DNA of 43,845 bases from Pseudomonadota bacterium (lineage in GTDB: Bacteria > Desulfobacterota > S145-22): assembly GCA_015493505.1 (NCBI GenBank), contig WGDA01000084.1, positions 1 to 43,845 on the forward strand. Reading direction: 5' to 3'. Below the pieces are notes generated by a model. It was not told where the DNA came from. It did no database searches and saw only the letters and a program-made list of their open reading frames with translations. Positions 2,859 to 19,979 of this stretch are shown piece after piece; positions within the stretch are counted from its first letter, which is position 1, and every line of letters begins with the position of its first letter. The position numbers were made by a program, and so were the translations under genes.

Positions 2859-3157
2859 TACCCGTTCAGCTCTATTTCGTCGTCAGCGCGATTCTGTTTG
2901 TCATCGGCGTGATTGGTGCCCTGACGCGGCGAAACGCCATTGTGGTGTTCATGTCGATTGAAATGATGCTCAACGCCGTGAACCTGACACTGATTGCCGC
3001 TTCCAGCTATCTGCATTCAATCGACGGGGTCATGTTCGTTTTCTTCGTCATGACGGTGGCGGCCGCGGAGGCGGCGGTGGGACTGGCCATTTTCCTGATG
3101 ATGTACAGGAAAAAGGATACCATCAAACTGGATGAGTTCAATCTGCTGAAAGGGTAG
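2855..3157 (+). CDS. nuoK: NADH-quinone oxidoreductase subunit K
   Basis: 100-residue, three-helix antiporter-like subunit (MrpC homologue) of the complex I membrane arm. The two membrane glutamates needed for proton translocation in E. coli NuoK are present at the same positions: E36 in [12 protein letters not shown] and E72 in [12 protein letters not shown]. The start overlaps the nuoJ stop (ATGA). The C-terminal motif DEFNLLKG is typical of the family. Confidence 0.98.
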
Positions 3158-3222
3158 CGATGATGCGTGTGCAACAATTAACCAAGGCAGGTTACAAAAT
3201 CGTCGGAAGAGGAGATCTGTAA

Positions 3223-5151
3223 ATGATGTCTCATATCTGGCTTATTCCTTTCTTCCCCATGGTTGGGTTTCTGATTAACGGGTTGCTGGGTGTCCGTTTC
3301 AAGCGCTCGTGGATTCATGTCATCGCCGCTTCGGCCATCGGGCTTTCTTTCCTGACCACTATCATCCTCTTTGTGGACCTGATGAAAGTGGCCCCCGAGG
3401 CGCGTCATTTTGAGGATGTTCTGTTCAACTGGATCGTGGCGGGCAAGTTCAAGGCGCAGGTGGCCTTCCTGATCGATCCGTTGTCGATCGTGATGGCGCT
3501 GGTCGTTACGGGCGTCAGCTTCATGATTCACATCTATTCCGGCGGATACATGGAAGACGATCCGGGATTCCGGCGTTTCTTCGTGTATTTGAACCTGTTT
3601 GTCTTCTCCATGCTGATTCTGATACTGGCCAACAACTTCCTGCTCATGTTTGTTGGATGGGAAGGGGTCGGGCTCTGCTCCTACCTGCTGATTGGTTTCT
3701 GGTTTGAAAAGGACTCGGCGGCCAACGCGGGGAAGAAGGCCTTCGTGGTCAACCGGATTGGTGACTTCGGGTTCGTCCTGGGGCTGTTTCTCATTGTGGC
3801 AACCCTGAGCCAGCATGGCATCTGGTCACTTGATTTCGACGTGGTCTTCAAGAACGCGCCCCTGTTCAGCACGACGACCGTAACGGCAATAACCCTGTTG
3901 CTTTTTGTGGGCGCGACCGGAAAGTCCGCGCAGATTCCTCTGTATGTCTGGCTGCCGGACGCCATGGAGGGTCCGACACCGGTCAGTTCCCTGATCCACG
4001 CTGCCACCATGGTGACAGCCGGTGTGTATATGATCGCGCGTTGTAATGTACTGTACAGCATGGCGCCAGTCAGCCTGGAAGTCGTTGCCGTCATCGGCGC
4101 CCTGACGGCCTTTTACGCGGCGACCATGGCGCTTGTGAACAACGATTTCAAACGGATTCTGGCCTATTCTACTGTCAGCCAGTTGGGTTACATGTTCATG
4201 GGGGTCGGGGTCGGCGCCTACAGTGCCGGGATCTTTCACCTCATGACTCACGCCTTTTTCAAGGGCCTGCTCTTTCTCGCGTCCGGGTGTGTCATGCACG
4301 CCATGGCGGGTGAGCTGGATATCCGGAAGATGGGCGGCCTGAAGAAGTTTATGCCTGTCACGTTCTGGACCTACATGATGGCGACCCTGGCCATCTGCGG
4401 CATCCCCGGCTTCTCGGGTTTCTTCAGCAAGGATGAAATTCTGTGGCAGTCCTTTCACCGGGGGCACATCGTTGTGTGGCTGCTGGGAACGGTGGCTGCC
4501 GGCTTGACCGCCTTCTATATGTTCCGTCTGACGTTCGTCGCCTTTTTCGGTAAGCCACGAATGGATGACGAGCTGAAACATCACCTTCATGAGGCGCCAA
4601 AGGTGATGACCTATCCGATGATCGTTCTGGCGATCGCCTCCGTCGTGGGCGGGTATATCGGTGTCCCTGAGGTCCTTGGCGGGTCCAACCGCTTTGAGAA
4701 GTTCTTTGAGCCGGTTTTCACGGGTGGGGCGGCGCACGCGCTGGCGCACGCATCCGCCTCCGTTGAATTCCTGATGATGGGGATTTCCGTCGCGGTCGCC
4801 GTCATCGGGATTATCGTGGCGTATCTCTTCTATATCAAGAACCCCGAGCTCCCTGTCCGCCTGGCGAATGGGATGAAGGGGCTTTATACCTTGCTCTACA
4901 ACAAGTACTTTGTGGACGAAATCTACAACAGCCTGTTCGTCCAGGGGACGAAGGATTTCGCTACTTTCCTGTGGCAGAAAGTTGACGTGGGAATCGTTGA
5001 CGCCGCCGTAAACGGTGTGGCGTCTCTTGTGGAGTGGTCTGGAGGGATGATCCGGAAACTTCAGACAGGGTATGTCCAAACCTATGCCTTCTCTATTCTG
5101 GTCGGAGGCGTAGTCGTGTTCGTATACTTTTTCTGGGAATCACTGTTTTAG
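3223..5151 (+). CDS. nuoL: NADH-quinone oxidoreductase subunit L
   Basis: Distal antiporter-like subunit of complex I (642 residues, normal length, with the long C-terminal lateral helix region). Signatures include the GWEGVGLCSYLLIGFW motif with the proton-channel glutamate at E147, and the VWLPDAMEGPTPVSSLIHAA loop (discontinuous helix TM7/8). The ATG at 3223 is preceded by GGAAGAGGAG. The 65-nt gap after nuoK is the longest within the operon but contains no evident hairpin. A following ATG (3226) would serve equally as start. Confidence 0.98.
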   Translation: MMSHIWLIPFFPMVGFLINGLLGVRFKRSWIHVIAASAIGLSFLTTIILFVDLMKVAPEARHFEDVLFNWIVAGKFKAQVAFLIDPLSIVMALVVTGVSFMIHIYSGGYMEDDPGFRRFFVYLNLFVFSMLILILANNFLLMFVGWEGVGLCSYLLIGFWFEKDSAANAGKKAFVVNRIGDFGFVLGLFLIVATLSQHGIWSLDFDVVFKNAPLFSTTTVTAITLLLFVGATGKSAQIPLYVWLPDAMEGPTPVSSLIHAATMVTAGVYMIARCNVLYSMAPVSLEVVAVIGALTAFYAATMALVNNDFKRILAYSTVSQLGYMFMGVGVGAYSAGIFHLMTHAFFKGLLFLASGCVMHAMAGELDIRKMGGLKKFMPVTFWTYMMATLAICGIPGFSGFFSKDEILWQSFHRGHIVVWLLGTVAAGLTAFYMFRLTFVAFFGKPRMDDELKHHLHEAPKVMTYPMIVLAIASVVGGYIGVPEVLGGSNRFEKFFEPVFTGGAAHALAHASASVEFLMMGISVAVAVIGIIVAYLFYIKNPELPVRLANGMKGLYTLLYNKYFVDEIYNSLFVQGTKDFATFLWQKVDVGIVDAAVNGVASLVEWSGGMIRKLQTGYVQTYAFSILVGGVVVFVYFFWESLF

Positions 5152-6792: not shown

Positions 6793-8241
6793 ATGAATTT
6801 AAACCAGATAATGACCCTTCTTCCGCTCATCATACTGGCGTCATTTGCCATGGGGATTCTGCTTATTGGTGCCTTCGCGAAAAACGCTAAAGGAACCAGC
6901 ACCATTGGGTACATCGCGCTGGCCTCCATGGTTTTCGTCTTCCTTTCCCTTTTTCTCTTCGTCGGGAAGGGAAAGATGGCCTTCGGAAGCATGATGAGGA
7001 TGGATGTCTATTCCATCTTCTTTAACCTTGTCTTCGTTGTGATCGGTGTCTTGACCATCCTTGCGTCCATTTCCTACGTGAAAATCACCGGCATACACAG
7101 CGGTGAATATTACGCTTTGATCCTCTTCTCCATGATCGGCATGATGCTGATGGCGTCCTCCACCAACCTGGTCATGCTGTTCATCTCCCTCGAGATGATG
7201 TCCATCCCCATCTATATCATGGCGGGCTTTCTGAGGAACGATGACCGTTCCATCGAGGCATCCATGAAATATTTCCTCTTAGGGGCCTTTGCCAGCGGGT
7301 TTTTCCTCTACGGATTGACCCTAATTTATATCTCAACGGGAGCCACGTCCTACCAGGCCATCGCCAATTTCATCGCGGGAACACAACGGTGGAACCTGAG
7401 CAAACTCATCTGGGTCGGCATCGCCTTTATTACCATTGGATTCGGGTTCAAGGTGGCGGCGTTTCCCTTTCATGCGTGGACACCCGATGTTTACGAAGGG
7501 GCGCCTACCTCGGTCACGGCCTACATGGCCACAGGCGTCAAGGCTGCGGCCTTTGCCGCCCTGGTGCGTATCTTCTTCTCGGTTTTCTCGCCATTTCAGC
7601 ACGACTGGACCTCCATTATGTGGCTGATTGCCGTGTTGACGATGACGGTGGGAAACTTTACCGCCCTGGTACAGAAAAACGTCAAGAGAATGCTGGCCTA
7701 CTCCAGCATTGCCCACGCCGGTTACCTCCTGGTTGCGTTCGTGGCGGGGAATGCCATGGGGCGTTCTTCCATCTTGTTTTATCTTCTTGCTTACGCCTTC
7801 ATGAATATCGGTGCCTTTACGATTCTGATGGTCATGGCGAAGAAGAATGATTATCACGAGGATCTGGACAGTTTTGCCGGTCTGGGCTTCAAGTACCCTC
7901 TCACGGCCCTGGCGATGAGTGTCTTCATGTTTTCCATGGCGGGCATCCCGCCGACCGCCGGGTTTATCGGCAAGTTCTATATCTTCAGCGCGGCGGTCAA
8001 GTCGCATGACTACTGGTTGGCCGTGATTGGTGTGCTGAACAGCGCCGTGTCGGTTTATTACTACCTGCGTGTCGTGGTGTACATGTATTTCAAGGAACCG
8101 GAAGAGGAGATTCCCACGTATCGCTTTTCCGCGCCAACGGTTTTTTCTATCGTCCTGGCCGTCTGGGGAGTCCTGCAGTTGGGAATCCTTCCGGGAGATA
8201 TTCTAAATATCGCCCGCCATTCCATCATGGCGCTGATGTAG
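6793..8241 (+). CDS. nuoN: NADH-quinone oxidoreductase subunit N
   Basis: Third antiporter-like subunit of complex I (482 residues). Clear motifs are FPFHAWTPDVYEGAPTSVTA, MLAYSSIAHAGYLL and SLEMMSIPIYIMAGF with the conserved TM5 glutamate. GTGGAGGATGATCTAAA precedes the ATG. This is the last nuo gene; the strand stays the same, but 522 nt without a gene follow and base composition then changes. Confidence 0.98.
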   Translation: MNLNQIMTLLPLIILASFAMGILLIGAFAKNAKGTSTIGYIALASMVFVFLSLFLFVGKGKMAFGSMMRMDVYSIFFNLVFVVIGVLTILASISYVKITGIHSGEYYALILFSMIGMMLMASSTNLVMLFISLEMMSIPIYIMAGFLRNDDRSIEASMKYFLLGAFASGFFLYGLTLIYISTGATSYQAIANFIAGTQRWNLSKLIWVGIAFITIGFGFKVAAFPFHAWTPDVYEGAPTSVTAYMATGVKAAAFAALVRIFFSVFSPFQHDWTSIMWLIAVLTMTVGNFTALVQKNVKRMLAYSSIAHAGYLLVAFVAGNAMGRSSILFYLLAYAFMNIGAFTILMVMAKKNDYHEDLDSFAGLGFKYPLTALAMSVFMFSMAGIPPTAGFIGKFYIFSAAVKSHDYWLAVIGVLNSAVSVYYYLRVVVYMYFKEPEEEIPTYRFSAPTVFSIVLAVWGVLQLGILPGDILNIARHSIMALM

Positions 8242-8763
8242 GGTAGGTGTGAGACCGCAGCCGCAGTTAAGTAATTTCGAAAGGGTAAAGGAAGAAACTC
8301 AGGGATTCTTAACTCTGCAACATAGATATCGATTTTAGATTTTAATCACAGCCGGTGGATTGATTGGCTCTGATGGCCCTCAATTGTGTCCCTCAGGCTC
8401 CAATCTCCCCATTTATCGTTCCTTACAATTGAGATGGATATCTCACGATCACTCCACTGATCTCGCCGAATGTTGTGCTTGCGAGTTGGATGCAAGTTAT
8501 AAAAATTAGCCAAAAAAAGCATCCAAAGAAGTAAATAAATATATTATTGTGATATATTAGAATGTTGTAGTTATATTTTAAAGTATAATGTTAAATATAT
8601 TTATACGAAATTATATTTGATTTTAGCAAAATTTTATGTATTTTAAGAAAAAATAGAGCAATGTAGATATAATTTTTACAAGCTGATGGTTTGTGAGAAA
8701 AAAAGATGGAGGACAGGGTATTAAATTAATGTAGAATATTGAAAAACAAATTAAGGATTTAAA
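8242..8763 (+). other. Intergenic region, strongly AT-rich in its right half
   Basis: No open reading frame of gene-like length was seen on either strand. The left part (to about 8500) has ordinary composition and contains a 9-bp perfect inverted repeat, 8379-8387 (CTCAATTGT) and 8425-8433 (ACAATTGAG), separated by 37 nt. From about 8500 to 8760 the sequence is dominated by A and T, with many TATA-like words, including a perfect TATAAT at 8668-8673. The region separates the GC-richer nuo operon from the lower-GC signalling module and probably carries the promoter(s) of the latter. No clear Rho-independent terminator for the nuo operon was found. Confidence 0.7.
8710..8737 (+). promoter_or_regulatory. 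Candidate sigma70-type promoter for the signalling module
   Basis: AGGACA (8710-8715) and TAGAAT (8732-8737) are separated by 16 nt. This would start transcription near 8744, just upstream of the ribosome-binding site AAGGAT (8753-8758) and the ATG at 8764. A second possible -10, TATAAT at 8668-8673, has only a weak -35 at a long spacing. In DNA this AT-rich such words arise easily, so this is a proposal from position and match only. Confidence 0.35.
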
Positions 8764-9660
8764 ATGATAGCATTAAATGGCAAGGTTCCGTATTTTAGTT
8801 TATCCAGTATACTTCGATTTTTATATTCAAATAAGATTACAGGCGCGTTGATCCTTACAAGAAAAAATGAACGGATGAGGATTTACCTTTCGCGAGGTAA
8901 GGTTGTCGGGGCGGAATCTGATCGCAAAGAACACAACAGTCCCATTGAAAACCTAATTGATTTGGCTGTGTGGTTGGACGGAGAGTTTAGATTAGAGATC
9001 CTTCCCGAAGACAAACTCATTAGGAATATCACGGTCCCATCAGATCAGATTACACTTCTTCTGGTAAAAAAAGAAAACGCATTCAAAGAATTAAAGGATG
9101 ATCTTCCCCCTCTGGGCTCTGTTTTGATTATGAATCCAGAGAATAAGACCGAAGAAATCAGACTGCAACCTGATGAGTGGAATTACCTTTCAAAGATAGA
9201 TGGCAAAAAAACGCTCGAAGATCTAATCTTCTCGTTAGACATGAGTGAATTAAATATTTTCAATATTACGGTTAAATTGATTCAAAAGGGAATTCTCAAA
9301 ACACGGGGGGCTCCAGAAACAGTTCAGAAAGTGGAATCCCCCGCAGGACAAAAGGTAAAAGAAGAAGAAACGGTTGAAAAAGAGGTGAAAAAACCGAAAA
9401 ACCAGATAGGGACCGCGCCCCTTTCGCCGAGCCCTGATAAAAAACTGGGAAACATAGAAAAGGTATTTGCGAAGTATGTGGGGCCTATGGCCACGATTAT
9501 AATGGATGAAGTCGTTGACTCGCTGGATGTCGAAGGAGGAAAAACTTCAAAGGAGGCGCTTTCAACCTTGGTTGAAAAGCTTTGTATGGAGTTGGAGTCA
9601 GAGGAGGAAAGGAAAGCATTTGAGGAAGAAGTATTCAGCCTGATGAAGCGGGATGAATAA
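8764..9660 (+). CDS. DUF4388 (PATAN-like) domain protein
   Basis: 298 residues, no signal peptide or membrane segment, so probably cytoplasmic. The N-terminal ~110 residues look like a DUF4388/PATAN domain: LNGKVPYFSLSSILRFLY, then KITGALILTR, then IYLSRGKVVGAES. In other bacteria this domain occurs in two-component and gliding/pilus signalling proteins; its biochemical role is unclear. Residues ~110-180 look like a small winged or helical segment (YLSKIDGKKTLEDLI). A charged, K/E-rich linker (~190-225) leads to a C-terminal helical domain (FAKYVGPMATIIMDEVVD onward) that resembles short C-terminal modules attached to some bacterial kinases. It is first in a five-gene same-strand run with MglA. 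Exact function unknown. Confidence 0.75.
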   Translation: MIALNGKVPYFSLSSILRFLYSNKITGALILTRKNERMRIYLSRGKVVGAESDRKEHNSPIENLIDLAVWLDGEFRLEILPEDKLIRNITVPSDQITLLLVKKENAFKELKDDLPPLGSVLIMNPENKTEEIRLQPDEWNYLSKIDGKKTLEDLIFSLDMSELNIFNITVKLIQKGILKTRGAPETVQKVESPAGQKVKEEETVEKEVKKPKNQIGTAPLSPSPDKKLGNIEKVFAKYVGPMATIIMDEVVDSLDVEGGKTSKEALSTLVEKLCMELESEEERKAFEEEVFSLMKRDE

Positions 9661-9687: not shown

Positions 9688-10566
9688 ATGTCAGATAAAA
9701 AGACTGTAAAATTCGGATTATTCCCAAAATTTTTACTTTCTTTTATTCTAATTGCCATCATCCCCATGTTGCTTATCGAGTATCTGTCATTTAAGGGGTT
9801 GCTGGATTTTAAGAAGAACGTGATTCCCGAGAGCAAACGGATTATAACAGATCTTTCTACTTCAAATATCAGGCAGAGAGCCTTGGACGTCGCCAAAGAA
9901 ATGGAGATCTATTTAAAATTAAAGAAAAACATGACGGTTGAAGAAATGCAGCATGACCCGTATTTGAAGTCCATAGCCGTGCAGCCCGTGGGGCGGACTG
10001 GGTACACAGCCGTGCACACAAACGCGGGTATTAATATTTTCCATAAAAACCCAAAAATTGTTGGTATGGACCTGCATAAGCTCAAAAATAAATTCCCTAA
10101 ATTTTGGGCAATCCTCGCAAAAAGCCTGAAAGGCCCCGCGAGTGGCTTTTACAATTGGAAAGATGTCCACGGCAAGGTTCGAGAGAAGTACATGTATTGC
10201 GCCCCGGTAAAAGGAACAAACCTCGTCGTTGCGGCGACGACTTATCTCGATGAATTTTACGCTCCTATCAATCGTCTTGAAGCTGCTGCGAATGAACAGC
10301 AACACAGCATTTTTCTCTACATCCTGATTGTTTCTGTCGCGTTCATCATTTACATGATTGTTTTCTCATATATTTACGCGAAAAGCATCACAAAACCGAT
10401 TTTGCATCTCGCGGATGTGGCTGACAGGATAAGTGTTGGTGATTTGGATGCCGAAGTGGACGTTAAAACTTCTGATGAAATCATGATTCTGGCAGGTGCT
10501 ATCAGCCGAATGCAGAAGAGCCTGAAATCAGCGATCGTACGGCTGAGAGAAAAGAGAAAAAGATAG
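9688..10566 (+). CDS. Cache-HAMP membrane sensor lacking an output domain
   Basis: 292 residues. A transmembrane helix at ~12-30 is followed by an extracytoplasmic region (~35-205) with Cache-type features (GRTGYTAVHTNAG, KGPASGFYNWKD, YMYCAPVKGTNLVVAATTYL), a second helix at ~207-230 and a HAMP domain at ~231-283 (SITKPILHLADVADRISVGD, then DEIMILAGAISRMQ). The protein ends right after HAMP with a short basic tail. There is no methyl-accepting, kinase, cyclase or phosphatase domain, so it resembles the front half of a chemoreceptor. The strong Shine-Dalgarno AAGGAGG 5 nt before the ATG fixes the start. No continuation of a signalling domain appears after the stop, so this does not look like a frameshift. 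The likely role is to pass a small-ligand signal to a partner in this cluster. Confidence 0.85.
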   Translation: MSDKKTVKFGLFPKFLLSFILIAIIPMLLIEYLSFKGLLDFKKNVIPESKRIITDLSTSNIRQRALDVAKEMEIYLKLKKNMTVEEMQHDPYLKSIAVQPVGRTGYTAVHTNAGINIFHKNPKIVGMDLHKLKNKFPKFWAILAKSLKGPASGFYNWKDVHGKVREKYMYCAPVKGTNLVVAATTYLDEFYAPINRLEAAANEQQHSIFLYILIVSVAFIIYMIVFSYIYAKSITKPILHLADVADRISVGDLDAEVDVKTSDEIMILAGAISRMQKSLKSAIVRLREKRKR

Positions 10567-10608
10567 AGGAACAGGCAAAAAGAAGGGATGACAAAAGGAG
10601 GGTTTTTC

Positions 10609-11847
10609 ATGTTTTGGCCCAGAAATCACGTCAGGTACGAAAATCTGAAGTCATCTTTCGTGAACCTTGAAAACCTTTTGGAAGATTTGGATACGGAGAG
10701 CTTTGAAGGTTTCCTTGAGATCGTGTTTGGTGAAGAGTTTTACTATCTGTTAAGGCGGCCGGGGCTAAAGGGCGGCATTTATCTCAAAGATAAAATGGGA
10801 AGATTCATCCCCGCTGAAATTTCGTTGACAGAGATCCAGGCAAGGTGCCATCAAGAAAATGCCATTATCAATGTCTATGATGTCAACAGGGAGCAACTTG
10901 AGTTTTTATCCGAATGCCTGAATTCCACGCCTTTATACACAAATCTTTCCAGTGAATTCACGGATTTTGAAAAGCTACTTTCCAAGCTGTCGAAAGACAC
11001 GCACACGGGCTACCTTGAGGTCTCCTTTCAGGACGTGCCGACTGAACCATGCTATATCTTTTATCAGCAAGGGGAAATTGGTGGTATTCTCTGGGGTGAC
11101 CATCAGTATGAAGATGCGGAAAAGGGAATACAAGAAATAAGCACGAAGCTCCGGGAAAATGAAGCGCAGTTTAACGTATATCAAATTGAAAGGGTGTCTG
11201 TAACGGAGAGGGAAGAAGCCCCGGAAATCGATTTGAACCATGAGCGGGAGACAGCTGCTGAACCCCGCATCCCGGAACCTGAAGAACCTGTTTCAGAACC
11301 AGAGTTCAAGACGCCGGAAAAGCAGCCTGAAGTTACAGAAGAAAAAACTGTAACGTATGAGGAAAACGAGGCGGCGGTTTCTCCTGTGGAAAATGAAATC
11401 CCCGGACAGGCTGAAACGCCACGGGCAGATGCTGAGGACAAAAATAAATTGGAAAATCTTTCGATTTTTCCTTACCTTGATTTCGCTGAAGCGCTGATTC
11501 AGTGGGTTGAAGAAAATGTGAACAAAGTGATGGGGAAAAATTATTTCTCCAAGGCCTTCAAGAAAGGGTTGTTGAATATATCGGACAAATACCCCTTTTT
11601 GGACCCGTTTCTCGCGGAGTTTACCTACATGGATGGGAAGATAACCTTTACTTCCGAAGCCACGGCGATAGAGTTTCTCAAGGGTATCTACGCGGCAATC
11701 GAAAGCTTGTTGGAAGAGTTGACTGTGAAAGAGAGAGAAAATATTCAAAAAAGATTGAAACAATCGCTGAGGCGGCTTGAGAAGATCCACCATGAAAATA
11801 TTGAAATCCTTCGTGTCAGAACGCTTATGCCAACACTTTTTCAGTAA
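10609..11847 (+). CDS. Protein with duplicated DUF4388-like domain and conserved helical C-terminus
   Basis: About 412 residues. I chose the ATG at 10609 because AGGAGGG (10596-10602) lies 6 nt upstream; an in-frame ATG at 10588 would place that site inside the gene. Two similar segments follow each other: the first has GFLEIVF, GLKGGIYL and INVYD; the second has GYLEVSF, EIGGILW and FNVYQ. This points to an internal duplication of a DUF4388/PATAN-like fold. A Glu/Pro-rich acidic linker (about 205-285) joins them to a C-terminal helical region with GKNYFSKAFKKGLL, KYPFLDPFLAEF and a coiled-coil-like end. No membrane segment. Function not recognised; position directly upstream of the MglA-type GTPase suggests a partner or regulator of it. 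Confidence 0.65.
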   Translation: MFWPRNHVRYENLKSSFVNLENLLEDLDTESFEGFLEIVFGEEFYYLLRRPGLKGGIYLKDKMGRFIPAEISLTEIQARCHQENAIINVYDVNREQLEFLSECLNSTPLYTNLSSEFTDFEKLLSKLSKDTHTGYLEVSFQDVPTEPCYIFYQQGEIGGILWGDHQYEDAEKGIQEISTKLRENEAQFNVYQIERVSVTEREEAPEIDLNHERETAAEPRIPEPEEPVSEPEFKTPEKQPEVTEEKTVTYEENEAAVSPVENEIPGQAETPRADAEDKNKLENLSIFPYLDFAEALIQWVEENVNKVMGKNYFSKAFKKGLLNISDKYPFLDPFLAEFTYMDGKITFTSEATAIEFLKGIYAAIESLLEELTVKERENIQKRLKQSLRRLEKIHHENIEILRVRTLMPTLFQ

Positions 11848-11859
11848 AGGATTTCATGA

Positions 11860-12474
11860 ATGTCATTCATAAATTTCAGCTCAAATGAGATACAGTGTAA
11901 AATCGTTTATTATGGTCCAGGTTTGGGGGGGAAAACAACAAACCTGTTATATATTTATGAGCATACCAACCCGGATATTAAAGGGAAAATGATCTCTATC
12001 GACACAAAAGGCGACCGCACGCTCTTTTTTGATTTTCTTTCGCTGAATCTCGGTAAGATCAGGGATTTCAAAATCAGGATCCAGCTTTACACCGTTCCGG
12101 GCCAGGTAACTTATGATTCCACGAGGAAGCTCGTGCTGAAAGGGGTGGACGGCGTTGTGTTTGTCGCTGATTCCATGATGATAAAAAGGCAGGAAAACAT
12201 TGACAGCCTTCAAAATCTTGAGGCAAACCTGGCGGAAAAGGGAATCAATATTTTCGATATCCCCCTGGTTCTTCAATACAACAAACGTGACCTTGAAAAC
12301 GGCAATATACCTATCTTGACGATTGAAGAGCTGCAGCGGGATTTGAATCATGATCTTCATGTGCCTTATTTTCCCGCAAGCGCCATAAACGGCGTGGGAG
12401 TTTTTGAAACATTGAGGGAAATCAGCAAACGGGTCGTAAAGGCTGTGAGCCTTAAGATTTTGGCAAAACGGTAA
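11860..12474 (+). CDS. mglA: MglA-type small Ras-like GTPase
   Basis: 204 residues, nearly co-linear with Myxococcus xanthus MglA, the polarity GTPase that directs type IV pili and gliding motors to the leading pole. Seen: MSFINFSS start, P-loop GPGLGGKTTN (residues 19-28), switch-region Arg R53, PM3 motif TVPGQ with T78 and Q82 in the same register as the characterised protein, DSTRKLVLKGVDGVVFVADS, and guanine-specificity NKRD (141-144). R53 and Q82 are known catalytic residues in MglA, so GTP hydrolysis is probably retained. No Roadblock/LC7 (MglB) gene is recognisable beside it, although mglB usually precedes mglA. The ATG at 11860 follows AAAGG; it sits 12 nt after the preceding gene and 14 nt before the next. 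Confidence 0.93.
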   Translation: MSFINFSSNEIQCKIVYYGPGLGGKTTNLLYIYEHTNPDIKGKMISIDTKGDRTLFFDFLSLNLGKIRDFKIRIQLYTVPGQVTYDSTRKLVLKGVDGVVFVADSMMIKRQENIDSLQNLEANLAEKGINIFDIPLVLQYNKRDLENGNIPILTIEELQRDLNHDLHVPYFPASAINGVGVFETLREISKRVVKAVSLKILAKR

Positions 12475-12488
12475 TAGGGAGTTTTCAA

Positions 12489-14156
12489 ATGAAAGACGAA
12501 GACCTTGAAGAAAAGCTAAAGGATATTGAAAAAGAGATTGATAGCGCGATCGACCAACTGTTTGTCGATAAAGTGGCGGAGGAGCCTCCCGCACAAGCTA
12601 TGATGGACATGGGCCCAGAAACTTCCACTCCCGAAGAGGAAAGCAGCGCGGGACCTACGTCAGAAGCACTGGACAATGAGGTGGAACCGGCAAAGCCTGA
12701 AGATGCTGGCGAAACAGGTATAACAGAAAAATACTCTGATGTTATAGACACGTTGCAATCTAAAGTTGAAGCGTTTACGGAATGGGGTGTCACGGATGTC
12801 GCTTTAGAGAAAATCCTGTCAGAAATTCACGAAATAAAAAATGCCTTTGGTGAAAGAAAGTTGCTGGCGTCTGTGGTCAGCATGATCACCGAAGTACTGA
12901 ATTTTCTGAAAGAGAACCCAACTTCACACGTGCCTGAACTGGTAGAATTTCTTTCCAACGCCTTGAACGCCATAAAAAAACTTATTCATTCGGCAGATGA
13001 AACGTCTCCTGAGGACAAAGAATTATATGACGCGATCAACACGCAGTTTTCAGAGATTTCCACGCTTCTTACGTTTGATATCGACACGATAGAGCTTGAA
13101 GAAAGATTCGCGCTTCCAGGTGACGAAGGGGAAAAATTGGAGGAAACGGAGTCCAAGGAAAATATCGAGCCCATAGACCTTGGCATTCACGGTAGTGCTG
13201 AAACCAGTCAAAAGGAGACTGCCGCTCAGGAAATGGAAGAAAGCGGTGAATCTGAGGAGAAAGGAGAGAGGGAAAAAATTGTTAACTTAAGCATGAGCTT
13301 TCTTGAACCAACCGATAGGGAAGCGGAAGTCCTTGAAGGCGATGAGGGCGCGGCACCCGAAAAAGAACAGGCTGAAGCGTTAGATGTGGGCATTTTTGAT
13401 ATGAAAAAGGTGCCTTCAGAGACTTCTTTAGATGAAGTCGAGGCAAGAGGTTCTGTTGAAACCGCAGAGGGTGAGCGTCAGCCAATCCCCCCGGCAAGTG
13501 TTGTGGCGTCTTCTCCGATTGAGAAATTCCATGAGTTGACGGATGAGCTTCGTGAAACGTTTAAAAGCGTTGAGAAGGTGTTTTTTGAGTCTCACACGAT
13601 TCCGGAGCTTATGGAAAAACTCACGGTCGCGATGGAAGCCCTCAAGAGTCACACAAACAGGCTTCTAACTGTAAAAAGTGCGGGAGTTCAATCCGAAAAT
13701 GAGTTAAAACAGTTACAGAATACCGTTTCGGAACTCAGGGATGATTTTGAATCGTTGTCCGAGCTGTTGGCTCCGGAGGGCATAAACCAATTCAACGTTG
13801 AAGAAATCGTTCCGGTCGTGGTTGGGAAAAAGATGGTTGGCGTCAGCACCAAAGGTATCGGGCAGATATATTCAATTTCGAAAACCCAGGAAGAAAAATT
13901 TTTGAGAGAAGGTAAAATAACACTTAAAGGCGAATCGATTCCTGTCGTCAATCTGTTTGAAGAATTCGCTGAGGTTTCGCAGAATCCTAATAAACGTTTG
14001 ATTGTTGTAAATGGCACGAATGGTTCAAGGGCCCTTTTGGCGGACAAGGTCCTCAAAAGATGTTTCGCGCTGGTTTCGGGTGAACCGGGGGCTCACGATG
14101 TAAGGACGGTCAAGTTCTACGTGGTTGAAGAGATTCCTCTGTATGAAATACCATGA
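12489..14156 (+). CDS. Long acidic protein with C-terminal CheW-like domain
   Basis: 555 residues. The first ~430 residues are Glu/Asp/Ser-rich, with low-complexity acidic stretches and helical segments (e.g. FTEWGVTDVALEKILSEIHE and KFHELTDELRETFKSVEKVF) and no membrane helix. Residues ~435-555 show the pattern of a CheW or CheA-P5 fold: VEEIVPVVVGKKMVGVSTKG, then ITLKGESIPVVNLFEEFAEV (the counterpart of the usual 'lRGevlPvvdL' strand pair), then KRLIVVNGTNGSRALLADKV. The match is by pattern and is degenerate, so it is an inference. CheW-like domains connect receptors to histidine kinases; no CheA or receptor signalling domain is encoded in the window. The ATG follows GGGAG. It is the last gene before an AT-rich gap. 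Confidence 0.65.
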   Translation: MKDEDLEEKLKDIEKEIDSAIDQLFVDKVAEEPPAQAMMDMGPETSTPEEESSAGPTSEALDNEVEPAKPEDAGETGITEKYSDVIDTLQSKVEAFTEWGVTDVALEKILSEIHEIKNAFGERKLLASVVSMITEVLNFLKENPTSHVPELVEFLSNALNAIKKLIHSADETSPEDKELYDAINTQFSEISTLLTFDIDTIELEERFALPGDEGEKLEETESKENIEPIDLGIHGSAETSQKETAAQEMEESGESEEKGEREKIVNLSMSFLEPTDREAEVLEGDEGAAPEKEQAEALDVGIFDMKKVPSETSLDEVEARGSVETAEGERQPIPPASVVASSPIEKFHELTDELRETFKSVEKVFFESHTIPELMEKLTVAMEALKSHTNRLLTVKSAGVQSENELKQLQNTVSELRDDFESLSELLAPEGINQFNVEEIVPVVVGKKMVGVSTKGIGQIYSISKTQEEKFLREGKITLKGESIPVVNLFEEFAEVSQNPNKRLIVVNGTNGSRALLADKVLKRCFALVSGEPGAHDVRTVKFYVVEEIPLYEIP

Positions 14157-14503: not shown

Positions 14504-15556
14504 GTGGGGAAAGGCGCGTATCTTATCGGGTTGGATATTGGCTCAAGTTCCGTCAAGCTGGTTGAACTAAAAGAAAAGAAAGGGCACCCTGTTTTACATC
14601 ATTTGGGGGTTGTGCACCTCGCGCCTGAAACAATTGTCGAAGGCACAATCATTGACAGTTATGACCTGATTAACGCCATCAAACATCTCATTTCCGCTCA
14701 CCACATTAAAAACCGTAAGGTTGCCATCTCTGTTTCCGGCACCCCCGTTATCGTTAAGCGATTGACTTTGGGATACATGACGGACAAGGAACTTGCCGAA
14801 ACGATTGACTGGGAGGTTGAGCGGTACCTTCCCTTTGATCTGTCCGAGGTTAACATCGATTATCATATCATCAGAAGCGATGAAGAGAAAAATCAGCTTG
14901 AGGTTTTAATCGCGGCGGTCAAAAAAGAAACGCTGGAAGAATACCTTTCTGTCGTCGCGGAAGCTGGCCTGAAAGTCCGAGTAGTGGACGTGGACGCCTT
15001 CGCGATGGAAAACGCGTATCTTTTTTCGGGCCAGCGCGAAAAAAACCAGACAGTAATTTTGGCCAATATTGGCGCCAGCCTTATGAACCTGAACATTGTG
15101 AGCGAAGGGGAAACCATGTTCACTAGGGATATCGCCCTCGGTGGAATCAATTTCACCAAAGAGATTCAAAAACAGATTGGTGTAACGTATGAGGAGGCGG
15201 AAAAACTTAAAACGGGAGGAGAACTGGATCCGGCGCAGGAAATCATCGTCAACAACGTTCTGGAAACAGCCAAAGAATCCCTTTCCAGCGAAATTTTAAA
15301 ATCCATCAATTTTTACAATTCAACGTTTGAAGGGAACGAGGTCAAGGAAATCGTGCTTTCCGGCGGGTCAGCCTTGATGAACGGTATCGCAGAATATATT
15401 CAGCAATCACTAAATATCCCGACAAGCATTATAAATCCGTTTGAAGATGTCGATATTAACAGCAAAACGGTTGATATAGATCTCATGGAAAAAACAGCCC
15501 CCATGTTTACGGTTGCCTTTGGGCTGGCTTTGAGGAGAGAAAAAGAGGAGAAATGA
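14504..15556 (+). CDS. pilM: Type IV pilus assembly protein PilM
   Basis: 350-residue actin-like cytoplasmic ATPase that binds the N-terminus of PilN and starts the PilMNOP alignment complex. FtsA/actin-fold motifs are visible: LIGLDIGSSSVKLVEL (phosphate-1), VILANIGASLMNLNIV (phosphate-2) and EIVLSGGSALMNGIAEYI (adenosine site), plus the PilM hallmark DWEVERYLPFDLSEV. It begins with GTG at 14504 after AAGGAGATTA. One base separates it from pilN. Confidence 0.97.
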   Translation: MGKGAYLIGLDIGSSSVKLVELKEKKGHPVLHHLGVVHLAPETIVEGTIIDSYDLINAIKHLISAHHIKNRKVAISVSGTPVIVKRLTLGYMTDKELAETIDWEVERYLPFDLSEVNIDYHIIRSDEEKNQLEVLIAAVKKETLEEYLSVVAEAGLKVRVVDVDAFAMENAYLFSGQREKNQTVILANIGASLMNLNIVSEGETMFTRDIALGGINFTKEIQKQIGVTYEEAEKLKTGGELDPAQEIIVNNVLETAKESLSSEILKSINFYNSTFEGNEVKEIVLSGGSALMNGIAEYIQQSLNIPTSIINPFEDVDINSKTVDIDLMEKTAPMFTVAFGLALRREKEEK

Positions 15557-15557
15557 A

Positions 15558-16100
15558 ATGATAAAAATCAATCTCCTGCCTCTGCGAGAGGAAAAGAGAA
15601 AAGAGAGAAAGCGGCTGGATATCTCCGTCAGTATCTTAATGCTCATTTTGACCGTCCTGATTGGCGGTTATCTGTATATCAATGTTTCAGGAGAGATCGA
15701 GAGCCTCCAGATTCAGATCAGGTCAAAAAAGGCGGAGGACGCCCGTTTGACGAGAAAAGTGGGGGAAATCAGGGTCCTCAAGAATAAGAAAAAAGAGCTA
15801 CAAAAAAAGATCGGCATTATTAACGCGCTTAACCGACAACGTTTGACGGCCATCAAGGTGATGGAAGAATTAAGCATTCAAGTTCCGGATAAAATCTGGT
15901 TTAAATCCCTTACGGTCAGAAATCACCGGCTTACGATTACCGGAATATCTTTGGATGACCAGACATTGTCCAATTTTATCTCAAGATTGAATCACTCGGT
16001 AAGATTTAAAAATGTCTGGCTTCAGGAGTCCAAACAGATTGTGTTAAACCAGGTGAAGCTAAAAGCGTTTTCACTCAATTGTAATGTCGTAACGGAGTAG
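15558..16100 (+). CDS. pilN: Type IV pilus assembly protein PilN
   Basis: 180-residue bitopic inner-membrane protein. The N-terminal MIKINLLPLREEKRK carries the INLLP motif that docks into PilM. A transmembrane helix at ~24-45 is followed by a coiled coil (IESLQIQIRSKKAEDARLTR region) and a C-terminal ferredoxin-like fold expected to dimerise with PilO. Coupled to pilM (1-nt gap) and pilO (4-nt gap). Confidence 0.95.
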   Translation: MIKINLLPLREEKRKERKRLDISVSILMLILTVLIGGYLYINVSGEIESLQIQIRSKKAEDARLTRKVGEIRVLKNKKKELQKKIGIINALNRQRLTAIKVMEELSIQVPDKIWFKSLTVRNHRLTITGISLDDQTLSNFISRLNHSVRFKNVWLQESKQIVLNQVKLKAFSLNCNVVTE

Positions 16101-16104
16101 AAAA

Positions 16105-16725
16105 ATGGCTCTGACATTTCAAGACATCCAGGGTCTCCCGTTTTACAAAAAATTTCTGATTCTTCTTGCGGTTCTGGGGGTCCTTTTCGGGTTGTTCTAT
16201 TATTTTATTTACATGCCAAAGCTTGATGAAGTCGCGTCTTTGCGGGCTCAGTTGCGCCAGCTGGATCAGCAGGTTATCCAAAAAAGAAAACTAGTTAGAA
16301 ACCTGAGGCAATTCAGAAAGGAGTTCGCGCTTCTCAAGAAAAAATACGACGAGTCTTTGCGTCAGCTTCCAAATAAAGAAATGATTGACAAAATCCTGAT
16401 GGATATAGCGAGATTCGAGAGAAAGGAAAGCCTCGAATCAATCCTGTTTAAGCCTAAAAAAGAGATAAAAGCCGGTTTTTACGCCATCGTGCCGGTACAA
16501 ATACAAATTCGCGGAACCTACCACCAGATAGGAAATTTCTTTGTCGACATCGTCAATCTGCCAAGAATTGTGAACATAAAAAGCTTTAAGCTTTCGAAAC
16601 CCAAAGACGTGAATGGCGAAGTCGTGCTGACGGCTGATTGCGCGATCGAAACATACAGATATATCCCAGAGAGCGAGCGTCCTAAGAAAAAGGGGAGAAG
16701 GAAAAATGTCCATAAAAAGAAGTAA
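16105..16725 (+). CDS. pilO: Type IV pilus assembly protein PilO
   Basis: 206-residue inner-membrane partner of PilN. Transmembrane helix at ~13-37, coiled coil ~45-90 rich in R/Q/K/L, then a periplasmic region with YHQIGNFFVDIVNLPRIVNI, a characteristic PilO stretch, and a basic Lys-rich tail. Its 3' end overlaps the pilP start by 20 nt. Confidence 0.95.
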   Translation: MALTFQDIQGLPFYKKFLILLAVLGVLFGLFYYFIYMPKLDEVASLRAQLRQLDQQVIQKRKLVRNLRQFRKEFALLKKKYDESLRQLPNKEMIDKILMDIARFERKESLESILFKPKKEIKAGFYAIVPVQIQIRGTYHQIGNFFVDIVNLPRIVNIKSFKLSKPKDVNGEVVLTADCAIETYRYIPESERPKKKGRRKNVHKKK

Positions 16726-17356
16726 ACCCGGGAAAATCTCGCGAGTGGGTGTCGCCTCGATTGTCATCACCCTTTTCGCCTTTGGGGTGTTTGTGGGGGG
16801 GTGCGGCAACAATGAATCTACGTCCGTCCCTATCAGTCAGGAGGCTGTCGCTATCAAAAAGAAGATAAAATATACCGTTTCTCAAAGCCTGAAAGCCAGG
16901 CAAATCCATCACAAAAAGCAGCAGACGGCCAAAACTGTCAAACCATCCGCCTTGAAGGTTAAAAATGGAAAGGGTAAAATTATAGAAGTTCATTACCGGT
17001 CAAATATCGCGAAGCTGCGTGACCCCTTCGTGCCTTTTATCAAATTCGAAACGGAAAAGAACCTCAAACTCAAGGCAAACAAACACCTTCTTCCCCTTCA
17101 GAAATACACCTTGTCGCAGTTGCGTTTAATCGCCATTATAGATGCCGGCAAGAAGGGGCGCTGGGCCATGGTGTGTGACGCGTCTGGAAAAGGGTATACG
17201 GTTCGGGAAGGAATGCCCATCGGAAGTGAAGGCGGGATTATTGAAAAAATCCTCCCAGATCGTATTGTCGTCAAAAAGACACGGGTTGATCTTTTGGGTA
17301 AAAAGAAAATAAGTTTTGCGGCATTAAAACTCCACCCGGAAAAAAAAGGAGAGTAA
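16706..17356 (+). CDS. pilP: Type IV pilus assembly lipoprotein PilP
   Basis: 216-residue lipoprotein connecting the PilNO complex to the PilQ secretin across the periplasm. The signal peptide ends in the lipobox FVGGC (Cys33). A Lys-rich flexible segment precedes the compact C-terminal beta domain with LRDPFVPF, LSQLRLIAIIDAGKKGRWAM and YTVREGMPIGSEGGIIEKIL, all typical of PilP. AAGGAAAA directly precedes the ATG inside the end of pilO. The gene stops 4 nt before pilQ. Confidence 0.95.
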   Translation: MSIKRSKPGKISRVGVASIVITLFAFGVFVGGCGNNESTSVPISQEAVAIKKKIKYTVSQSLKARQIHHKKQQTAKTVKPSALKVKNGKGKIIEVHYRSNIAKLRDPFVPFIKFETEKNLKLKANKHLLPLQKYTLSQLRLIAIIDAGKKGRWAMVCDASGKGYTVREGMPIGSEGGIIEKILPDRIVVKKTRVDLLGKKKISFAALKLHPEKKGE

Positions 17357-17360
17357 AAAA

Positions 17361-19979
17361 ATGTGTCAGCGCGTGATAGGGAAAAGGGATAAAATTTTGA
17401 AAGGCTGGTGGATTTGTTTCGCATTCCTTGTTTCTATAGTGCTCGTGTTTCCGTCTTACGGGGTGGCCTCCAAAGGGGGAGGAACGCAACAGGCGCCTTT
17501 ATGGGCCTGGGTAAACGTCAGAGAAACGCATGTCAGGCAACAGCCGACCGTAAAATCGCCATCTTTAGGTATTTTGCGGAAGGGCCAAGTTGTGAGAACC
17601 TTAAAGTCTGTCAAAGAATGGACAAAGGTAGAGTACGAACTTGGAAAAACAGGATGGATATTCAGTAAAAATATATCACCTGGCCTGCCGGCCACGCTAC
17701 CCGAAGCAGACCGGATTCTTTACCTGAAAGAGGTAAAAACGGGAAATAGAGGTGTCGTAGAGGTCTTCTTCAACGGCGCTATCGGGAATAAGGTAAAGAT
17801 GTTTAGCATGAAGTCTCCCGTTCGCCTCATTATGGATCTTCCGGGCATGAAGTCTTCCCGCAATAGAACCTTTTCTCTTACAAAAGCGTCATTTGTTTCA
17901 AAGGTTAAAATTGGCGTTCACCCGGATAAATCACGAGTTGTATTGTATTTGAACAATAAAATCAGAAAATTTTCCCACAAAATCAGCCTGGAGAAAAATT
18001 CCTTATCTCTCGCTTTTCTGCTTGGGGGGCAAGCCGTGGCAACAAACGCAGCCACAAAAAATGTCCAAAAGACGGCAAAGATTCATCATCAAAAGAAGAA
18101 AAAAGAGGCCATAAAGGCGACCCATCACATCAAGCGCCTTGCGGAGGTAATCAGAACGGGATTCAGGGATGAAACAACACGGTCCATGGTTGTCTTAAAA
18201 TTAACAGAGAAGCCTGCTTATTATTACATCAGGTTTAAGAACGGAAAGGTGGGGCTCATTTTGGATGACGCCTTTATCAGCAAGAGATACATGAGATTTA
18301 TGGACACATCCGCTTTTCCAACCCCCGTAAAAAAGATTGAATTCAAGAACGTCACAGGTACCAAAGAAGGTAGAAAGGCGGAGGTCTGGGTGACGGTAAA
18401 GGGCATGATCAAAAATGACGTCGCCATTGATGGCACGACACTGAAATGGATATTTCAGAAGCCTGAAGAATATATCGCGAAAGCCCAAAAGACTCAAAAG
18501 GTTCAAAAGTTCCCGGTTAAAAAATCGCTTGTCAAAACGTCCGCAACGGTGGTGCAAAAACCTAAGATGAAAACAGCGTCTAAAGTTGCCAAACCCGTTG
18601 CAAGCACTAACGAGTCTAAAAGGGTCCTGCAAGCTTCCGCACCGTCGCACCCACTGTTCATCAAGAAGAAATACACCGGCACCAAGATGTCTTTCGATTT
18701 CCAGCAAGCGGATATTCATAATGTGTTGCGCTTGATTGCTGAGGTCAGCAACCTGAATATCGTGGCTGGGGACGACGTGAGAGGCAAGATTACCCTCCGC
18801 CTGAAGAACGTGCCGTGGGATCAGGCACTGGATATTATCCTTGAATCACAAGGATTGGGGAAACAGAGAATTGGCAATGTCCTCAGAATTGCCCCCATTT
18901 CAAAGCTCAAAAAGGAAATGCAGGAGAAAATCTCGGCCAAAAAAACGGTGGAGAAACTTGAACCCCTTGTTACCTCTTATATTCCCATCAACTATACCAC
19001 GGCAAAAAACCTGTCCATAAAAGTGAAACCCATGTTGTCTTCCCGTGGAACGGTCATGGTTGACGATCGGACAAACACCCTGATTATTAAGGATATTGCC
19101 AAAAAGGTCAAAGATGTGAAGGCGTTGGTAAAGAAACTGGACACGCCAACTCCGGAAGTTTTGATAGAATCCAGGATCGTAGAAGCGACAAAGGATTTCA
19201 CGCGTGAAATTGGTATCAAATGGGGAGCCAATTACAACGCCGGGCCGCAGTACGGAAACGCCCCGAGCTCGAACTTCCCCAACGCTATGAACGTTAGGGG
19301 TGGCGCCACGGGCCAGGCTGGTGGGGGAACAACAACAGGTACCGGTACAACTGGTGGCACAGGATCCATGCCATCCGGCATTCTCCCCAATGTGAATCTG
19401 CCGGCTGCCGCCTCCTACGGAGCATTAGGCGTAACGTTGGAACAGGTGGCAAACATCTTCACCCTGGATGCGGAGCTGACCGCCATGGAGGACAATGGAA
19501 AGGGCCGTATAATTTCCAGTCCGCGTATCGCCACACTCGACAACAAGACGGCAAAGATTGAACAGGGCCTGAGAATTCCTTATCTGAAGATTACAGAAGA
19601 AGGAACCGTGACCACTGAATTCATCGAGGCGAACCTGAATATGGAGGTGACACCTCACGTGAGTAATGATAAAATGATAAACATGCAGGTGCAGGTCTCG
19701 AAAGATACCCCCGACTGGTCACATCTGGTACAGGGGGTGCCCAGCATCGATAAGAAGGAAGCCACAACCAACGTGATGGTTCGTGACGGCGGTGTCACGG
19801 CAATTGGAGGGATATTTACCATAGAGAGGACGAACTCTATTCATAAGGTTCCTTTCTTTGGGGATATCCCGATTCTCGGCTGGGCATTTAAAAACAAAAG
19901 AACAGTCAAAAACCGTAAGGAGTTGTTGATATTTATCTCACCAAAACTTATCCCGTTAAAAGAAAGCAGAAAGAAGTAA
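17361..19979 (+). CDS. pilQ: Type IV pilus secretin PilQ with N-terminal SH3 domain
   Basis: 872-residue outer-membrane secretin that forms the pilus exit channel. Domain order: signal peptide (~1-37); bacterial SH3-like domain (~44-104: WAWVNVRETHVRQQPT ... LGKTGWIFSKNI); AMIN domain (~118-215); a second AMIN-like segment (~260-355); a Lys/Val-rich linker; STN/N0 domain (~440-515: MSFDFQQADIHNVLRLIAEV); secretin N1/NOLW domain (~535-595); and the secretin barrel from ~597 to the end (VLIESRIVEATKDFTREIG, VPFFGDIPILGWAFKNK). AMIN and SH3 domains are expected to bind peptidoglycan. A Gly/Thr-rich insert (~650-690) interrupts the secretin domain. Last gene of the pilM-Q set; the amidase begins 25 nt later. 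Confidence 0.95.
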   Translation: MCQRVIGKRDKILKGWWICFAFLVSIVLVFPSYGVASKGGGTQQAPLWAWVNVRETHVRQQPTVKSPSLGILRKGQVVRTLKSVKEWTKVEYELGKTGWIFSKNISPGLPATLPEADRILYLKEVKTGNRGVVEVFFNGAIGNKVKMFSMKSPVRLIMDLPGMKSSRNRTFSLTKASFVSKVKIGVHPDKSRVVLYLNNKIRKFSHKISLEKNSLSLAFLLGGQAVATNAATKNVQKTAKIHHQKKKKEAIKATHHIKRLAEVIRTGFRDETTRSMVVLKLTEKPAYYYIRFKNGKVGLILDDAFISKRYMRFMDTSAFPTPVKKIEFKNVTGTKEGRKAEVWVTVKGMIKNDVAIDGTTLKWIFQKPEEYIAKAQKTQKVQKFPVKKSLVKTSATVVQKPKMKTASKVAKPVASTNESKRVLQASAPSHPLFIKKKYTGTKMSFDFQQADIHNVLRLIAEVSNLNIVAGDDVRGKITLRLKNVPWDQALDIILESQGLGKQRIGNVLRIAPISKLKKEMQEKISAKKTVEKLEPLVTSYIPINYTTAKNLSIKVKPMLSSRGTVMVDDRTNTLIIKDIAKKVKDVKALVKKLDTPTPEVLIESRIVEATKDFTREIGIKWGANYNAGPQYGNAPSSNFPNAMNVRGGATGQAGGGTTTGTGTTGGTGSMPSGILPNVNLPAAASYGALGVTLEQVANIFTLDAELTAMEDNGKGRIISSPRIATLDNKTAKIEQGLRIPYLKITEEGTVTTEFIEANLNMEVTPHVSNDKMINMQVQVSKDTPDWSHLVQGVPSIDKKEATTNVMVRDGGVTAIGGIFTIERTNSIHKVPFFGDIPILGWAFKNKRTVKNRKELLIFISPKLIPLKESRKK

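Follow-up and report, generated by a model that had tools for sequence, protein, structure and literature searches.

The open reading frame at positions 10609–11847 of the window, the 43,845-nt stretch of DNA analyzed in this study, encodes a protein whose N-terminal part is a tandem duplication of one fold. Judged by homologs and profiles, both copies are probably divergent DUF4388/PATAN domains. An earlier note on this DNA had suggested that the protein, encoded directly upstream of mglA, could replace MglB. Such a replacement was not supported as a role of the family and is unlikely in the window genome. Instead, the protein may link MglA to the type IV pilus.

Architecture of the tandem-DUF4388 protein

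The identified features are listed in Table 1. The gene starts with an ATG at 10609, and an alternative longer start at 10588 is likewise open. A promoter and terminator scan found sites no commoner than in shuffles.

Table 1. Features of the window in and around the gene of the tandem-DUF4388 protein.
Feature	Positions	Strand	Basis
Single-DUF4388 protein, 298 aa	8764..9660	+	Pfam DUF4388 E 2.9e-8, over cut-off
Cache-HAMP membrane protein, ORF ending just past HAMP	9688..10566	+	dCache_2 E 2.8e-10, HAMP E 2.2e-11 (Pfam)
Shine-Dalgarno-like AGGAGG, serving the start at 10609	10596..10601	+	Sequence
Tandem-DUF4388 protein, 412 aa	10609..11847	+	ORF and homologs
DUF4388-like copy 1, residues about 7–103	10627..10917	+	AlphaFold2, profile and pairwise comparison
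DUF4388-like copy 2, residues about 104–197	10918..11199	+	AlphaFold2, profile and pairwise comparison
Acidic, proline-rich low-confidence linker, residues about 198–284	11200..11460	+	pLDDT, 10-row alignment
C-terminal helical domain with beta hairpin, residues about 285–412	11461..11844	+	AlphaFold2
YPFLDPF signature, residues 328–334	11590..11610	+	62-row alignment
12-nt gap, mglB absent	11848..11859	+	Relatives L021, L022, L063, L064, L112 and L115 carry mglB between homolog and mglA
MglA GTPase, intact	11860..12474	+	ORF, alignment to M. xanthus MglA
CheW-like protein, 555 aa, long variable N-terminal part	12489..14156	+	Pfam CheW E 2.7e-4, below cut-off
pilM, pilN, pilO, pilP, pilQ (type IV pilus alignment and secretin complex)	14504..19979	+	ORFs

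The tandem duplication claimed in the earlier note was confirmed by pairwise comparison, profile comparison and two AlphaFold2 models. The Smith-Waterman score between residues 1–103 and 104–203 was 110, while 5000 shuffles gave a mean of 27 and a maximum of 53. Profile-profile comparison of the copies from 62 homologs gave a probability of 99.2 and an E of 1.8e-18, which is the value of one comparison with the same proteins on both sides. The 688-aa ORF of L097 was left out of the family alignment, and 7 weak members of 69 were left out of the 62. The models of the window protein (10-row alignment, mean pLDDT 74) and of its ortholog L021 (62 rows, mean pLDDT 89) both possessed, in each copy, the order beta-alpha-beta-beta-beta-beta-alpha-beta, followed by a helical C-terminal domain with one hairpin. 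Thus, the folds of the two copies are not unrelated, their strand and helix orders being identical in both models. Moreover, the three motif pairs from which the repeat had been read, GFLEIVF/GYLEVSF, LKGGIYL/EIGGILW and INVYD/FNVYQ, all lined up in register when copy 1 was aligned with copy 2.

The description of a two-domain protein held for the two N-terminal copies, but the AlphaFold2 models also contained a third domain at the C-terminus. As this conserved domain (residues about 285–412) is separated from the copies by the linker, the protein comprises three folded domains instead of two. The pLDDT of the window protein was <50 across most of residues 196–281, and its linker was longer than those in the other nine rows of the 10-row alignment. 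The invariant columns of the 62-row alignment were P4, G34, L113, G155 and F330-L331-D332-P333-F334. Sequence comparison found no relatives of the C-terminal FLDPF domain, and neither Pfam nor NCBIfam has a model for it.

Identity of the duplicated fold

Between the two folds that the earlier note had named for comparison, the results were in favor of DUF4388 and against Roadblock/LC7. Pfam DUF4388 (PF14332) was matched by 30 of the 62 homologs at E ≤ 0.01 (best 1e-11), and the match of ortholog L021 reached 45.3 bits (cut-off of 25) over two stretches. The window protein itself matched neither a Pfam family at E ≤ 0.01 nor an NCBIfam model; its sequence marks it as an unusually diverged member of the family. 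When copies 1 and 2 were compared locally with two sets of DUF4388 proteins encoded by neighboring genes, the profile scores ranged from 36 to 43 over 44–62 of about 97 columns, and those of permuted columns were ≤20.4 (4 × 100). In the non-local comparison, the probabilities with the DUF4388 sets were only 30–59, and those with a third set were 4 and 11 (E 0.003 and 0.0007), where unrelated controls gave E of 0.02–0.05.

Against the MglB profile, the local scores of the copies were 15.3 and 9.2, values that permuted nulls reached in 4 and 98 of 100 cases, respectively, and the non-local comparison gave E of 0.32 and 0.53. As this similarity is about chance level, the possibility that the copies are Roadblock domains was rejected. 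The Roadblock/LC7 domains of MglB structures follow the order alpha-beta-beta-alpha-beta-beta-beta-alpha, from which the order predicted for both copies differs.

Searches of the PDB with both models yielded no match at E ≤ 0.001 with Foldseek (best E 0.04 and 0.0073, to sliding clamps with a TM of about 0.1) and no clear match with VIA-align (best Z 6.4 and 4.9). Roadblock chains were absent among the structure matches listed for both models, which excludes nothing. The best E of the family profile against PDB sequences was 0.39, and for a REC-DUF4388 neighbor the best 60 of 241 matches reached the receiver part only. In addition, 10 of the 62 family members matched archaeal DUF2226 (best 6.2e-9), a hint at a relationship between DUF2226 and DUF4388.

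Distribution, gene neighborhood and coexistence with MglB

With E ≤ 0.001 as the threshold, the family profile matched 55 of the 395 genomes in a sample of the phylum, one of them being the window genome. A scan of named genomes identified 44 loci out of 81 candidate stretches, which were mostly from Desulfobacterota/Deltaproteobacteria and also from KSB1, Caldithrix, Acidobacteria and one Chloroflexi assembly. Two layouts recurred. The first, of which L022, L063, L064 and L112 each carry a part, consists of DUF4388, Cache-HAMP, REC-DUF4388, the tandem protein, MglB, MglA, CheW-like, kinase, NtrC and PilMNO(P). The second, found in many Desulfobacterales, consists of MglB, MglA, CheW-like, DUF4388, Cache-HAMP, the tandem protein and REC-DUF4388. 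The gene mglB was adjacent to the homolog in L021, L022, L061, L063–L065, L112 and L115. Among 62 loci (L097 counted, L067 counted once and 6 duplicate loci removed), at least 54 had Cache-HAMP relatives, which varied in length, at least 55 any DUF4388 neighbor, at least 33 a CheW-like protein, at least 36 MglA, at least 36 MglB and at least 33 both; these are lower bounds because the fetched stretches are truncated. Within the fetched stretches, 23 of the 62 loci had neither MglA nor MglB, and 6, including the window, had at least three pil genes.

Several other arrangements were observed. L067 (KSB1) contained two tandem-DUF4388 genes at one locus (3074–4057 and 8001–8963). In G061, a REC-DUF4388 protein with a Roadblock-like C-terminal part is encoded directly upstream of mglB-mglA (L140, 6544–7917), and a match was found in a similarly long frame of G024; DUF4388 and Roadblock domains are thus used together. 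In the window genome, a DUF4388 gene at the end of contig C66 (L142, 5666–6487) and a Roadblock pair at the start of contig C11 (L020, 158–966) possibly belong to one split locus.

Strong homologs, defined by E ≤ 1e-20, were found in 46 of the 395 genomes, which the combined profile searches are all assumed to cover. Strong MglB matches were present in 41 of the 46 and MglA in 41, with no MglA match in the other 5. Given these 5 genomes and the 23 loci without MglA or MglB nearby, the link between the tandem protein and MglA is not universal. Among the genomes with MglA, MglB was found in 40 of 41 with a strong homolog and in 112 of 179 without one. The co-occurrence of strong homologs with strong MglB had an odds ratio of 17 (p 9e-14; 395 genomes, phylogeny not corrected). 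The sole exception among the 41 was the window genome. The strong set excludes the 9 of the 55 genomes whose family matches were weak (E above 1e-20), and the MglB count excludes the weak MglB-profile matches in G000, G199 and G343 (E 1e-11 to 1e-13). At the loose cut-off, the window genome is joined by the weak-match genomes G106, G134 and G144, in which MglA also occurs without MglB. The coexistence in 40 of 41 genomes led us to reject replacement of MglB as a general role of the family. The loci that hold both MglA and MglB and the lack of Roadblock similarity also argue against the replacement that the earlier note had put forward.

Absence of mglB from the assembly of the window genome

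As the earlier note had stated, 12 nt separate the two genes, the stop of the tandem gene ending 12 nt before the ATG of mglA at 11860. Relative to the closest operons, the tandem gene is indeed at the place of mglB, because mglB is absent from the window locus. Searching the whole window by tblastn with five MglB proteins found nothing better than E 0.18, and no strong MglB match was found in the window genome. In the assembly, mglB is truly absent from this place. At locus level, L025, whose genome has MglB on another contig, and the partly masked L078 had MglA but no MglB as well. Orphan MglAs of this kind have been described (PMC3983030; PMC4316618).

In the MglA tree, the smallest well-supported set holding the window comprised 14 rows (99/97). 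The presence of MglB at every one of the other 13 loci favors loss of mglB in the window lineage over primary absence. The fork of the window with L021, L022 and L064 was weak (82/53), and in a second tree with 33 of the 69 rows the place of the window, on a long branch, was unsure. Neither the MglA tree nor the divergence comparison below included L078, whose mglA is masked in part.

MglA of the window was 72–75% identical to those of L021, L022, L064 and L115. It deviated at only one of the positions conserved in ≥90% of the other members, for which reason a decaying MglA was rejected. Placed by alignment to M. xanthus MglA, it possesses a P-loop with G21, as well as R53, T78 and Q82. An MglA of the Bdellovibrio type with S21 was rejected, since G21 is kept.

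Over the range of 60–76% MglA identity (6 window pairs and 165 others; 30 loci tabulated), the two copies were 25 and 28% identical in window pairs versus 45 and 45% in other pairs, and the C-terminal domain 30% versus 40%, the window copies being the most diverged. However, the CheW-like protein, PilM, PilN, PilO and PilP of the window were also more diverged than in the compared operons, although the Cache-HAMP protein was not. Thus, the divergence of the tandem protein is not specific and is suggestive only.

Neighboring genes and proposed role

The Cache-HAMP ORF (9688–10566) contains no kinase, chemoreceptor or cyclase output domain and has relatives of the same length (289–295 aa) in L022, L023 and L112; its output may thus be by protein contact. 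The CheW-like homolog of L022 matched Pfam CheW over the cut-off (E 2.9e-6). CheA was not noticed in passing among the ORFs near the CheW-like gene (12489–14156). The genes that follow are presumably pilM to pilQ, names that we gave by recognition and not by family search. In L022, L063, L064, L112 and L115, at least three relatives of the pil genes of the window adjoin the homolog. A PilB family match over the cut-off was found on contig C143 of the window genome (753 bits), and none of 14 control genomes had a match over the cut-off.

Based on gene context and on cyanobacterial PATAN regulators that bind PilB, we propose, at roughly even odds, that the tandem protein is a cytoplasmic tandem-PATAN adaptor, through which the MglA switch and inputs from Cache-HAMP/CheW are connected to type IV pili. 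For PixG, interactions with PilC and PilB1 have been reported (PMC12288463), and PixE is hypothesized to bind PilB1 (PMC7690835). PATAN genes were reported near MglA Groups 1 and 5 (PMC4316618). In Myxococcus, MglA is described to act on pili via SgmX, FrzS and SopA, and two M. xanthus PATAN proteins are among those co-occurring with the MglA effector SgmX (PMC11580455). Together with PilB in the window genome, these links of PATAN to pili underlie the adaptor reading, in which we infer each contact. The protein consists of a pair of DUF4388/PATAN-like domains followed by a flexible linker and a C-terminal domain specific to the family, and it is part of a conserved signaling cluster (Cache-HAMP, DUF4388 proteins, CheW-like, MglA and usually MglB) that would feed the type IV pilus. 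Its PATAN pair would dock on PilB/PilC, the PilM-PilO base or the MglA/MglB switch, its conserved FLDPF domain would make the other contact, and MglA-GTP and the membrane sensor would decide where or when pili extend. The tandem protein would not itself be a GTPase-activating protein. In the window lineage, mglB would have been lost between the tandem gene and mglA, and a Roadblock pair encoded elsewhere could, but need not, act on MglA.

This Roadblock pair, on contig C11, might supply the MglB function, probably with a DUF4388 partner, while the tandem-DUF4388 protein stays an adaptor, which we consider rather unlikely. Its two proteins are the only Roadblock-family matches in the window genome, and both are over the Pfam cut-off. 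The DUF4388 gene is cut by the end of contig C66, and on C11 the first Roadblock gene lies 157 nt from the contig start, an arrangement that resembles the DUF4388-Roadblock order of G005 (L139), and a homologous Roadblock domain (41% identical) is the one fused to REC-DUF4388 beside mglB-mglA in G061. However, the two proteins share only 22 and 14% identity with the MglB of L021 and lack its conserved ANFGAT and FHKG stretches. The NCBIfam MglB model matched the first weakly (E 0.0012, compared with 1.3e-18 for MglB of L021, both under the cut-off of the model) and the second not at all. Moreover, an 81% identical Roadblock protein is present in G005, a genome of the same family, though MglA was not found there.

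It is improbable that the tandem protein is a partner of MglB, like RomY in Myxococcus, that lost this partner in the window genome and is now drifting. Strong co-occurrence with MglB across the 395 genomes and the adjacency of mglB at the loci named above would agree with this explanation, as would the fast divergence of the copies in the sole strong-homolog genome with MglA and without MglB. In contrast, the frame is intact, FLDPF is kept and 23 of the 62 loci have neither MglA nor MglB nearby. RomY is described as a protein of 188 aa with a conserved N-terminal region of its own (PMC9481161). The chance is similarly small that the organism has mglB and that the assembly lacks it. The genome is a draft of 174 contigs with 4.1% contamination, but its completeness is 99%, and the continuous contig with the 12-nt junction means that at least its usual place does not hold mglB.

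That the tandem protein substitutes as a single chain for the MglB dimer in the window genome, as GTPase-activating protein or exchange factor of MglA, is very unlikely. It would account for the missing mglB, at the locus and as a strong match in the genome, and for window copies that are the most diverged of 30 loci, as a change of partner might give. It would also suit an MglA that keeps G21, R53 and Q82, since loss of mglB in Bdellovibrio is described to accompany S21, although the same source reports four species with a G21 MglA and no MglB, so that a substitute is not needed (PMC3983030). Nor do the 67 of 179 genomes that have MglA but neither a strong homolog nor strong MglB need one, and the coexistence with MglB, the absence of Roadblock similarity in the copies and the unspecific divergence all speak against it. 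That mglB was deleted in the lineage and the fast-diverging tandem protein took over the nucleotide cycle of MglA as a non-Roadblock GTPase-activating protein, a kind of protein of which we know no example for MglA, is highly improbable.

Given that this domain type binds the pilus motor elsewhere and that the C-terminal domain is strongly conserved, the tandem-DUF4388 family is a concrete candidate for a link between MglA-type GTPases and pilus machines outside Myxococcus. With the window genome, there is one more example of an MglA that looks intact in the absence of MglB.

Comparison with known systems

The proposed adaptor shares its type of gene neighborhood with the PATAN genes that Wuichet and Sogaard-Andersen (2014) described close to mglA/mglB, although the text of that study, as available to us, does not describe the tandem protein or its conserved FLDPF domain (PMC4316618). 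Phrases for tandem-PATAN or DUF4388 domains were not found in the open PMC papers searched. Similar to MglB, the Roadblock/LC7 GTPase-activating protein of MglA, the tandem protein is encoded directly upstream of mglA in the window genome. Different from MglB, it has another strand and helix order and no profile similarity, and it co-occurs with MglB in relatives. With the cyanobacterial PATAN regulators PixG, PixE, LsiR and TaxP2, as far as these are described, it shares a DUF4388-type domain and a link to type IV pili and chemotaxis-like systems. Different from them, it contains two divergent tandem copies, no receiver and a family-specific C-terminal domain, and has MglA in its cluster. Finally, SopA of M. 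xanthus, an MglA-dependent pilus regulator that its description reports only in Myxococcales, is similar in possessing about 400 aa, two folded ends and a disordered middle (PMC11580455).
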